Positions 43,716-46,139 of a stretch of 64,000 bases of DNA are shown one piece after another (position 1 is the stretch's first letter; each line of letters starts with the position of its first letter). The notes below the pieces were generated by a model. That model saw only the letters and a list, made by a program, of their open reading frames with translations, did not search any database and was not told the DNA's origin. The stretch lies in the NCBI GenBank assembly GCA_017642885.1, contig JAEPOM010000001.1:186001-250000 (forward strand). Reading direction: 5' to 3'. This DNA comes from Henriciella sp. (GTDB taxonomy: Bacteria; Pseudomonadota; Alphaproteobacteria; Caulobacterales; Hyphomonadaceae). The translations under genes and the position numbers were made by a program.

Positions 43716-45248
43716 TTAGGCGGCCATTCTTTTCAGGCGGCGAGCCTCTAGCTTATTCAGGGCATGAATATAGGCCTTGGCGGCGGCAACAAGCGTATCC
43801 GGATCTGAAGACCGTCCGGTCGCCATGATGCCTTCACCTTTCAGACGCACATGCACATCGGCCTGCGCATCCGTACCGCCCGTAACCGCGCTGACCTGAA
43901 ACAGGTCGAGCTTACCCTCATGGGGGACAATTTTGCGGATCGCGTTGAACACAGCGTCGACCGGGCCATTGCCTTCACAGGACACGGCGTGGCTTTCGCC
44001 GTCCACCAAAACGGTAAGGTCCGCTGTTTGCGGCCCCTCGGAGCCAGCGACAACGCGGAGCTTCTCGAAGGAGATACGCTCCCCGACTGCAGACAATTGA
44101 TCATCGACCAGTGCCATCAGATCATCGTCAAAGACGTGTTTCTTCTTGTCGGCCAGATCCTTGAAGCGTTTGAAGGCCTCATTCAGGCTGTCTTTATCAA
44201 GCTCGTAGCCGAGACTTTCCAGCTTGTCGCGAAACGCATGACGCCCCGAATGTTTACCCATGACCAGGCTGGTTTTGGAGACACCGACATCTTCCGGCTT
44301 CATGATCTCATAGGTTTCAGCGTTCTTCAGCATGCCATCCTGATGGATCCCGCTTTCATGTGCGAACGCGTTCTTGCCGACAATCGCCTTGTTGTACTGA
44401 ACCGGGAAGCCGGTAATTCGGCTGACCATGTGACTGGCAGTCGCCAGCTTTGTGGTATCGAGCCCTGTGGTGAATGGTAAGTCGTCGCGGCGCGTGTTGA
44501 ACGCCATGACCACTTCTTCCAACGCCGCATTGCCCGCGCGTTCGCCCAGACCGTTGATCGTGCACTCGACCTGCCGCGCGCCGTTTTGCACGCCCGCTAT
44601 TGAATTGGCGACAGCAAGTCCGAGGTCGTTGTGGCAATGCGTCGACCAGATCACTTTGTCACTGTCTGGAATGGTCTCGCGCAGTCGGCGGATCAGGTTG
44701 CCATATTCCTCAGGGTGGGAATATCCGACCGTGTCGGGAATGTTGATCGTGGTCGCGCCGCTGGTAATCGCAGCATCAATGCACTTGCAGAGGAAATCGA
44801 ATTCCGTGCGGGTCGCGTCCTCCGGGCTCCATTCCACATCCGCCACCAGGTTGCGAGCCTGCGCGACGGAGCGCCCGACCGCTTCCAGAACAGCATTCGC
44901 ACCCATTTTGAGCTTGTGCTTCATATGCACCGGGCTGGTGGAGATAAACGTGTGAATACGGGGCTTTGCAGCATGGCGCACGGCTTCGGCGCAGCGATCA
45001 ATGTCGCCGGGTGTGGATCGCGCGAGGCCGCAAATAGTCGCCGATTTAGAGCGCTTAGCGATTTCTCGGACGGCCTCGAAATCGCCAATTGAGGCCGCTG
45101 GGAAGCCCGCCTCAATCACGTGTACGCCCATGGTCTCGAGCAATTCGCCCAAAGCCAGCTTTTCGTTATGGGTCATAGAAGCGCCAGGCGATTGCTCGCC
45201 ATCGCGCATCGTTGTGTCAAAAATTACAATATCTGTTGTGTCTGTCAT
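43716..45248 (-). CDS. leuA: 2-isopropylmalate synthase
   Basis: First committed enzyme of leucine biosynthesis, condensing 2-oxoisovalerate and acetyl-CoA. The 510-residue type 1 form has the HMGL-like barrel with F-D-T-T-M-R-D-G-E-Q-S-P-G near residue 10, H-C-H-N-D-L-G-L-A near residue 204 and E-C-T-I-N-G-L-G-E-R-A-G-N near residue 230. A LeuA dimer regulatory domain (about 385-505) should bind leucine for feedback inhibition. No good SD precedes the ATG. The leader upstream encodes a leucine-rich peptide, so expression is probably leucine-controlled in addition to feedback. Confidence 0.97.
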   Translation of the reverse strand: MTDTTDIVIFDTTMRDGEQSPGASMTHNEKLALGELLETMGVHVIEAGFPAASIGDFEAVREIAKRSKSATICGLARSTPGDIDRCAEAVRHAAKPRIHTFISTSPVHMKHKLKMGANAVLEAVGRSVAQARNLVADVEWSPEDATRTEFDFLCKCIDAAITSGATTINIPDTVGYSHPEEYGNLIRRLRETIPDSDKVIWSTHCHNDLGLAVANSIAGVQNGARQVECTINGLGERAGNAALEEVVMAFNTRRDDLPFTTGLDTTKLATASHMVSRITGFPVQYNKAIVGKNAFAHESGIHQDGMLKNAETYEIMKPEDVGVSKTSLVMGKHSGRHAFRDKLESLGYELDKDSLNEAFKRFKDLADKKKHVFDDDLMALVDDQLSAVGERISFEKLRVVAGSEGPQTADLTVLVDGESHAVSCEGNGPVDAVFNAIRKIVPHEGKLDLFQVSAVTGGTDAQADVHVRLKGEGIMATGRSSDPDTLVAAAKAYIHALNKLEARRLKRMAA

Positions 45249-45254
45249 CGGTTC

Positions 45255-45338
45255 GGCCAGTTGATGTCGTGAAGCTTTTTGGTGCGATCCCCTGGCCGTG
45301 GGCAGATGCGCTACAGCACCGCCGCTACCGGCCAGGGG
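45255..45338 (-). promoter_or_regulatory. leuA leader with mutually exclusive pairing segments
   Basis: Reading the minus strand, segment 1 is CCCCTGGCC (45338-45330), inside the leader peptide just after its leucine codons. Segment 2 is GGCCAGGGG (45297-45289) and pairs with segment 1 over nine bases. Segment 3 is CTGGCC (45260-45255), six bases before the leuA ATG, and can pair with the first six bases of segment 2. No T-run follows, so the control may act on translation or by Rho instead of intrinsic termination. The direction of the switch is not clear from sequence. Confidence 0.6.
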
Positions 45339-45382
45339 CCGATAAGTAGAAGTAGGCTCGAAAGGGGCAAATTCTTGCGCAT
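45311..45382 (-). CDS. leuL: leu operon leader peptide
   Basis: A 23-codon reading frame starting M-R-K-N-L-P-L-S-S and continuing L-L-L-L-I-G-P-W-P-V. It has seven leucines, four of them consecutive and encoded CTA-CTT-CTA-CTT, codons that look uncommon in the neighbouring genes, plus Ile and Val. This is the hallmark of an attenuator leader peptide sensing charged tRNA-Leu. A promoter-like TTGACA lies so close that the ATG could be at or near the transcript 5' end, as for leaderless leader peptides in other alphaproteobacteria. No SD is visible. The stop codon TAG precedes pairing segment 2 by 13 bases. Confidence 0.75.
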   Translation of the reverse strand: MRKNLPLSSLLLLIGPWPVAAVL

Positions 45383-45389
45383 GCGCACT

Positions 45390-45418
45390 GCAATGCGGTT
45401 TGCCGACAGCAGTGTCAA
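45390..45418 (-). promoter_or_regulatory. Candidate leuL-leuA promoter
   Basis: A perfect -35 hexamer TTGACA (minus strand, 45418-45413) and a poor -10 CATTGC at 17-base spacing (45395-45390). It begins five bases after the stop of the preceding TVP38-type gene. Transcription would start about at the leader-peptide ATG. Confidence 0.5.
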
Positions 45419-45422
45419 CAGG

Positions 45423-46139
45423 CTAATCTGCGCTGAGCGCAATATTATCCCCTTTGCGGCGTCTGTGCCGCACATAGAAAAAGCCGCCCAGAAACACACA
45501 AAGCGCCGCGAGCGCGGCCGCCAGCGCCGTCCAGAAATTTCCCTGAAGCGCGGCCTGGATCGCCTGCAGGCCAAACGCGACCAAAGCGATCTTGGGAATG
45601 ACACCGAGCGCCAATCCGCCGAAATAATGGGTGAATTTCGCGCCAATCGCTCCGAACACCATGTTCACCAGAAGGAATGGTCCCGTCGGCGCATTGCGCA
45701 CAATCGCGCTCGCCGCGAATGCATTGCGAGCGACGAATTCGGCAAATCTCTTGATCCGCCCTTCGCCCAGTCGATTAAGCGTTGCGGTGCTGAACAACCG
45801 CCCAAGCCAAAATGTGATCACCCCTGAACAGAGCGTTGCAACCCAGGCCCAGACGGCGCCCCATAGAGGCCCAAACGCATACACGGCAATCCCGATGAGC
45901 AGAAATTGCGGCACGCCGATAAAGGCGCAAACACAGAATGCTACGATAAGTGCCGGAACACCCCAGGGTCCGTCGGCAAACTCGCCAATCGCCCGTTGCA
46001 GCGCGTCAATATTCAGAAACTCGGTGTAGCGACCAAACAGAAAAAGCGACAACAGCAAAGCAATCAAGCCAATCCCGACCCATAGGCCAAGCCGGGAGCC
46101 CTGCGCTTTTGGGGCGGGGTTGGGCGTATCGCTCTCCAT
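45423..46139 (-). CDS. TVP38/TMEM64 (VTT domain) membrane protein
   Basis: A 238-residue inner-membrane protein with about six hydrophobic segments and a VTT (DedA-related) domain: F-I-G-V-P-Q-F-L-L near residue 74, F-G-P-L-W-G near residue 88 and a conserved R-N-A-P-T-G-P region near residue 148. DedA-related proteins act as lipid scramblases or flippases. The C-terminal tail is basic. The stop lies directly before the leuA promoter. Confidence 0.85.
   Translation of the reverse strand: MESDTPNPAPKAQGSRLGLWVGIGLIALLLSLFLFGRYTEFLNIDALQRAIGEFADGPWGVPALIVAFCVCAFIGVPQFLLIGIAVYAFGPLWGAVWAWVATLCSGVITFWLGRLFSTATLNRLGEGRIKRFAEFVARNAFAASAIVRNAPTGPFLLVNMVFGAIGAKFTHYFGGLALGVIPKIALVAFGLQAIQAALQGNFWTALAAALAALCVFLGGFFYVRHRRRKGDNIALSAD

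Follow-up and report, generated by a model that had tools for sequence, protein, structure and literature searches.

A conserved leucine-rich leader with predicted competing RNA pairings upstream of leuA suggests translational attenuation in Henriciella and other Hyphomonadaceae

We analyzed the region upstream of leuA in a window of 64,000 nucleotides from Henriciella sp. (contig JAEPOM010000001.1, positions 186,001 to 250,000; all coordinates below are those of the window). The gene that would be regulated, leuA, lies on the minus strand (43716–45248) and was assigned to 2-isopropylmalate synthase by NCBIfam NF002087 and TIGR00973 (687.6 bits for TIGR00973, compared with a cut-off of 598.7). 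A gene encoding a VTT-domain protein (45423–46139) is located upstream on the same strand, and 174 bases separate the two genes. Read 5΄ to 3΄ on the minus strand, this interval contains a –35-like element, TTGACA (45413–45418), then 30 nt, the ATG (45382) of a 23-codon frame, MRKNLPLSSLLLLIGPWPVAAVL* (45311–45382, stop codon TAG at 45313–45311), and finally the leuA ATG (45248). A hexamer, CATTGC (45390–45395), 17 nt past TTGACA and 7 nt ahead of the leader ATG, may serve as the –10 element. The Leu-rich frame that the original prediction placed between TTGACA and leuA was accordingly found there, on the minus strand.

The putative control codons of this frame, Leu10 to Leu13 (CTA CTT CTA CTT, 45344–45355), are followed by ATC GG and then by CCCCTGGCC (45338–45330), which pairs with GGCCAGGGG (45297–45289) in a hairpin, hereafter P1, that encloses the leader stop codon. 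We refer to the Leu run as segment 1, to the 5΄ strand of P1 (CCCCTGGCCG, 45329–45338) as segment 2, to its 3΄ strand (CGGCCAGGGG, 45289–45298) as segment 3 and to the leuA start region (CTGGCCGAA, 45252–45260) as segment 4. The last of these includes CTGGCC (45260–45255), 6 nt ahead of the leuA ATG, and is predicted to have two alternative partners. One is the 3΄ strand of P1, with which positions 45260–45254 could form the 7-bp helix P4 (CGGCCAG:CTGGCCG); the other is the 5΄ strand of a helix P0 (TTCG-A-GCC, 45355–45362), which overlaps codons Leu7 to Leu10 and whose partner would be GGCCGAA before leuA. Since GGCC is self-complementary and abundant in the region, the pairing partners are partly ambiguous. 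A re-reading of the sequence confirmed the three complementary segments of the original prediction, with their coordinates. The leuA start shows little match to a Shine-Dalgarno sequence, and the fold would therefore occlude the start region at large.

Among 90 distinct Hyphomonadaceae leaders, Leu accounted for 27% of the residues, with no peptide containing fewer than four, and in 88 leaders the Leu codon nearest upstream of P1 was CTT. Counting from the Pro codon of P1 in 136 distinct loci, we found Leu at codon –4 in 100 and at codon –5 in 111, and CTG, CTT, CTC and CTA were all used at the conserved Leu positions. At least two Leu among six codons were present in frame in 136/136 loci, one of these Leu (at –3) being given by construction because the core pattern of the search requires CTN just before GCC; the other two frames reached this number in 28/136 and 0/136 loci. 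CTT made up 41% of the Leu codons in the leaders (228/556), compared with 41/213 in six genes of the window. A run of codons for the product of the pathway, as expected of the leader of a classical attenuator, is thus present, and the Leu-rich frame, whose lack in close relatives was to count against the prediction, is kept in close and distant relatives alike. The Leu content also stands against the idea that leuA is free of leucine control, with P1 as a constitutive stabilizing hairpin and the frame as a small hydrophobic one that arose by chance.

The position of the promoter is tied to the leader ATG. TTGA[CG] was detected 25 to 34 nt before the in-frame ATG in 115 of 163 loci (related sequences were counted separately), and in 114 of these 115 the spacing was 29–30 nt, as expected for transcription starting on the A of the leader ATG. 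At the –10 position, several Hyphomonas loci carry GATTAA or GAATAA. A scan of the window region with the sigma-70 consensus returned no site, because the –10 element is weak in the window species. The spacing suggests that the leader mRNA is probably leaderless, with a transcript starting at the leader AUG, in line with what had been raised as a possibility for this peptide.

The folding energy of the window leader was, by itself, unremarkable (z = –0.53; 61 of 200 shuffled sequences folded equally well or better), and the case for the element accordingly rests on conservation. We collected 110 leuA upstream loci, of which 99 were distinct and usable after removal of L074 and L076, in which the leuA motif was unmatched, and of nine duplicates. 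P1 (CCCCTG...CAGGGG) was present in 95 of these 99, the pattern being unmatched in L068, L080, L091 and the truncated L110. LeuA was found at E ≤ 1e-150 in 99 of 105 Hyphomonadaceae genomes; leaving aside three with partial genes, P1 followed the Leu codons in 96/96 upstream regions (L001–L030 and 66 added loci, of which 19 repeat earlier sequences). In other families of the order, the core pattern was matched in 2 of 14 loci and unmatched in 12. By eye, a variant hairpin missed by the search pattern (e.g. GCCCTTGGGCGC...GCGCTCAGGGG) was seen in L179, L180, L181 and L182, and a P1-like hairpin outside the pattern match in L184. L190, from another family of the order, has a leader-like frame, MRSKILFFTKGLRLLLITAR*, approximately 150 nt upstream of leuA, without the P1 core.

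Covariation of P1 was assessed in an alignment of 68 distinct rows, thinned by hand from 103 non-redundant ones. Standard pairs occupied 97.6% of the P1 pair cells, compared with at most 59.1% paired in slid controls. Five of the ten pairs changed on both sides, in 54 cells compared with a mean of 15.5 in shuffled alignments; the version in L063, CCTCT:AGAGG, is one such compensatory change. Consensus folding predicted P1 in six of seven groups; in Caulobacteraceae, it returned no P1 and preferred a local hairpin. An extra hairpin at the last Leu codon (similar to GGGGCTT-ACA-AGCCCC), a competitor of P1 for segment 2, was noticed in L030, L047, L053, L054, L057 and L059 as well as in Caulobacteraceae.

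The strong sequence conservation of GCCCCTG/CAGGGG might indicate that the leader is bound by a protein or a ligand and that the frame is incidental, a view put forward earlier for the LEU element of Actinobacteria, where Seliverstov 2005 (PMC1262725) favoured a protein. The synonymous variation of the in-frame Leu codons over all four CTN forms, the restriction of the Leu codons to one reading frame and a promoter spacing set relative to the leader ATG all argue against this proposal, and we regard it as improbable.

P1 is not followed by the T-run of an intrinsic terminator. In the window, one of the eight bases after P1 is T, and at least five T in eight were observed in just 8 of 137 distinct loci (this total differs from the 136 used for the Leu codons because the deduplication keys were slightly different). 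A terminator scan of 44600–45800 returned two terminator-like sites only, both within 45503–45518 and upstream of the promoter. An intrinsic terminator before leuA was thus rejected, as the missing T-run had led the original prediction to expect. The leader peptide, the Leu run and the alternative pairings do resemble those of the enterobacterial leu and ilv leaders, in which case transcription would terminate at P1 or at another hairpin; given the T-run counts and the position of the two scanned sites, we consider such classical attenuation very improbable.

To describe its distribution, we built a covariance model of the element, R1 (70 positions, 10 pairs). In its own genome, R1 recognized one true place (61 bits); a second match lay on the opposite strand of the same place, and occurrence of the element at other genes of this genome was rejected. 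One match per genome was obtained in 59 of 289 alphaproteobacterial genomes sampled and in 62 of 398 genomes sampled across the phylum, where the matches listed were all within Alphaproteobacteria; the searches were strictly filtered, so that absence from the remaining genomes means little. Six genomes were common to the two samples, which leaves 115 matched places, and leuA started within approximately 250 nt downstream in 57/57 distinct places checked among them. A single copy per genome, placed at leuA, is a second argument against a leader without leucine control, which we consider the least probable of all the readings. A search with Rfam 15, RF00512 included, yielded no match at the gathering score in the window or in eight relatives, and identity with an Rfam family was rejected for these sequences; at a lax threshold, just a chance-level match to a trypanosomatid snoRNA family appeared (E = 0.32).

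We next consider the alternative partners of the leuA start. In a free-register test, the leuA start (27 nt plus the ATG) was compared with successive 16-nt windows of the leader, 16 windows per group, following a preceding version that used 27 nt up to and including the ATG and compared a species' own complementarity with that after swapping between species. The null was tree-aware, the leuA start evolving along the tree regardless of the leader (60 or 150 draws), and the group names ‘Hyphomonas’, ‘g4’, ‘Caulobacteraceae’ and ‘Rhizobiales’ serve here as labels of convenience, derived from record titles and from genus and family codes. All counts from this test are per window and uncorrected for the 16 windows per group. 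In Henriciella (n = 28), co-variation of the leuA start with the Leu-run region at offsets –26, –20 and –14 from P1 was reached in 0/60 null draws each, as was that with the 3΄ strand of P1 at –18 and –14 from its end (0/60). In Hyphomonas (n = 38, one of 39 rows being left out by conditions on length), the leuA start co-varied with the Leu run at offset –20 (1/60) and with P1 on its 3΄ side, mainly toward the inside of the hairpin (–22; 0/60). The inner 3΄ strand also gave a signal in Caulobacteraceae (n = 21; 1/60), and co-variation was not significant in g4 (3 of 14 rows left out for length) or Rhizobiales (n = 11 each).

In a stricter, fixed-register tree-aware scan, no helix of the leuA start exceeded the family-wise limit in Henriciella, Hyphomonas or Caulobacteraceae, and one did so in g4, at 5/150 (1 of 14 rows left out). 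For Henriciella group A (eight sequences), to which the window belongs, consensus folding predicted P1, and P0 and P4 were not predicted; within this group, P0 shows a compensated change, TTCG:CGAA in L001 compared with TTTG:CAAA in L003. A helix between the Leu run and the leuA start was predicted in Henriciella groups B and C, and was absent in group A and in the Hyphomonas and Hyphomicrobium-like groups; in the Rhizobiales group, a GTCCTTC:GAAGGAC helix was predicted. L083, L084 and other Rhizobiales carry a conserved GTCCTTC approximately 45 nt before P1, complementary to GAAGGAC in the Shine-Dalgarno region of leuA. The duplex energy between the 36 nt before P1 and the leuA start was lower for own than for permuted combinations in three of four groups; in Caulobacteraceae, own combinations were not below permuted ones.

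We further modeled how a translating ribosome might affect the leuA start: for each codon of the leader, the RNA downstream of the ribosome was folded and the cost of opening the leuA start was computed, in a model that ignores kinetics and coupling to RNA polymerase. In Henriciella, the mean cost was 7.2 kcal/mol for the free RNA and 4.8 kcal/mol when the A site lay five codons upstream of the Pro codon of P1, within the Leu run; it rose to 10–11.5 kcal/mol with the ribosome inside P1 (11.4 three codons past Pro) and was 9.5 at the stop codon. The corresponding values in Hyphomonas were 7.5 kcal/mol (free), 4.2 (at –5) and up to 11.0 (three codons past Pro); with the ribosome at the stop codon, the start was no more closed than in the free RNA (7.4 versus 7.5). 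In g4, the cost was 9.1 kcal/mol for the free RNA, 5.5–5.9 at the stall codon and up to 9.5 past it. For the window leader itself, we obtained 6.6 kcal/mol (free), 4.14 at Leu10, 3.82 at Leu11, 12.6 at Leu13 and 14.7 at the stop codon.

The past-minus-stall difference in cost, the stall codon having been chosen as –5 after the profile was known, was 6.6 in Henriciella and 6.7 in Hyphomonas. It decreased to 4.9 and 4.1, respectively, when the downstream part was taken from another species, and to 1.4 and 2.4 when the linker and start were shuffled. In g4, native and swapped sequences behaved alike (3.6 and 3.4; 2.5 shuffled). The most open codon was Leu in 52 of 75 distinct leaders, compared with 20.7 expected. 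The cost minimum shifted by one codon when the ribosome footprint was altered by 3 nt, remaining in the same stretch, and was independent of the window chosen as the start region. In Caulobacteraceae, the trend was weak and close to that of shuffled controls. In Rhizobiales, the free RNA was closed (12.4, compared with 9.7 for shuffled sequences) and a ribosome from approximately codon –17 onward opened it (approximately 5–7), which suggests that this group may hold a variant with P0 only. Because of the weak Caulobacteraceae profile and the differing one of Rhizobiales, support for the full switch extends to Hyphomonadaceae only.

Free-register co-variation in Henriciella and Hyphomonas (0/60 each, uncorrected) and the folding model speak for the three-segment switch of the original prediction, and the fixed-register test did not bear it out. 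Mutually exclusive pairings tied to the position of the ribosome, the mark of a classical attenuator, were obtained in Hyphomonadaceae by computation, with a negative result at fixed register; likewise, exposure of the gene start by a stalled ribosome, the mark of translational attenuation, is a computed property, weak in Caulobacteraceae. On the co-variation and the modeled folding, we regard the switch as supported in Hyphomonadaceae.

These results bear on the level at which control would be exerted. If leucine is plentiful, the untranslated stretch past the leader stop codon could become a target of Rho, and transcription would end before leuA. Such Rho-dependent attenuation would agree with the missing intrinsic terminator, and any ribosome-mediated scheme would be compatible with the Leu codons and segment 2; moreover, a passage of Seliverstov 2005 (PMC1262725) proposed Rho for cys leaders lacking a terminator. 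However, it offers no reason for the leuA start to co-vary with the Leu run and with P1 on its 3΄ side, or for that start to open best in the model when a ribosome sits on the Leu codons, and we consider it unlikely. Between translational and Rho-dependent control, which the original prediction had left side by side, the evidence favours the former. The broader claim of that prediction, an architecture of amino-acid attenuation, is supported by the Leu codons, the covariation of P1 and the computed switching, and we consider it likely that the element is a ribosome-mediated leucine attenuator acting on the translation of leuA.

The mechanism that we propose for this translational attenuator is as follows. 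The transcript would begin at the AUG of the leader peptide. When leucine is plentiful, ribosomes would traverse the leader and unfold P1, segments 3 and 4 would form P4, and the leuA start would be closed. On a leader free of ribosomes, segment 4 would instead pair with the Leu-run region as P0, around an intact P1, and the start would again be closed. Under a shortage of charged tRNA-Leu, a ribosome would presumably wait at the first Leu codons of the run, masking the strand of P0 while P1 stays folded, so that the leuA start would be left without a partner and leuA would be translated. The start could thus be locked twice, by the Leu run or by the 3΄ strand of P1, and it would take a ribosome waiting on the Leu codons to remove both locks. 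As read from the sequence and the model, this logic would be that of a 1-2-3-4 attenuator of the classical kind in which the leuA start takes the role of the terminator and P0 provides a second lock for ribosome-free RNA. We infer that the transcript is leaderless, that the ribosome waits, that leuA responds to leucine and that control is translational. Toward the reading that combines all of these features, namely a leaderless, double-locked translational leucine attenuator that is widespread in Alphaproteobacteria and lies outside Rfam, we lean only slightly. The P0 pairing, the wide spread within the class and a precedent in the actinobacterial LEU element go beyond the original prediction.

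Several known systems can be compared with this leader. The attenuator of the enterobacterial leu operon (RF00512, Leu_leader) has four Leu codons in a row and hairpins that exclude one another; the present leader differs from it in lacking a terminator, in having no Rfam match at the gathering score and in being probably leaderless. The control codons of trpL are Trp codons. As reported in part of a study of Sinorhizobium meliloti (PMC10117765), its trpL encodes a leaderless peptide from the AUG of the transcript and is a tryptophan attenuator that also yields the small RNA rnTrpL; a peptide beginning at the transcript AUG is a trait that our leader probably shares. The logic of opening is that of translational attenuation of the ermC type, in which, according to a passage of PMC10219788, stalling of a ribosome within the leader frame exposes the main gene's start, although the signal for ermC is erythromycin and that in our case would supposedly be uncharged tRNA-Leu.

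The nearest known relative, by analogy, appears to be the actinobacterial LEU element of leuA. In the passages of PMC1262725 that concern it, the LEU element has a leader with a Leu run, no terminator, a base stem between Leu codons and the Shine-Dalgarno sequence, alternative folds and an unsettled mechanism. The leader LeuL1 of S. lividans (MRFGLLLLSCRGEGL) is described in part of PMC8079986 as leaderless and without a typical terminator, and four Leu codons are given for the leuA leader peptide of C. glutamicum in a passage of PMC4046766. Like the LEU element, our leader has a Leu-run frame directly before leuA and no terminator. The base stem of the LEU element joins the run of Leu codons to the leuA Shine-Dalgarno sequence; the equivalent pairing here gave a free-register signal in Henriciella and Hyphomonas and none above the family-wise limit at fixed register. 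Compared by description only, the LEU element is actinobacterial and has a pseudoknot, whereas the present element has a GCCCCTG/CAGGGG hairpin core; in our leader, moreover, the leuA start has segment 3 as a further potential partner. Several rhizobial leaders end in LLLLSCP, a likeness to actinobacterial LEU leaders that is a lead on descent only. A leader of another kind was seen in L253 (NZ_LT559118.1, Nonomuraea gerenzanensis, an 11.85-Mb record filed as a plasmid), where a synthase of the citramalate/isopropylmalate type by sequence reading, 28% identical to the query, is preceded by the frame MFYGLLIIGRRAG* and by a GC hairpin bearing a T-run, which looks like an ilv-type intrinsic attenuator.

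Among the literature matches listed, the titles, abstracts and passages contained no description of an alphaproteobacterial leuA leader. The survey of proteobacterial attenuators by Vitreschak et al. in 2004 is said to include branched-chain attenuators in alphaproteobacteria, and it may already mention a leuA leader. In the relevant passage of an alphaproteobacterial screen (Corbino 2005), the ilvB leader peptide is treated as already known, citing Vitreschak 2004, and leuA is absent there.

Amino-acid attenuation in its textbook form acts by transcription termination. Leucine leaders without a terminator have been noted in Actinobacteria since 2005, their mechanism being unsettled, and the element described here offers a compact and conserved case in which the competing pairings are explicit and the codons on which a ribosome would open the leuA start are predicted. 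With it comes an RNA family so far unlisted, a marker of leuA in numerous alphaproteobacterial genomes, through which annotation could pick up a leader gene that is at present missed. If the proposed mechanism is true, amino-acid attenuation free of termination would, together with the actinobacterial LEU element, be a standard form of leuA control in two phyla.
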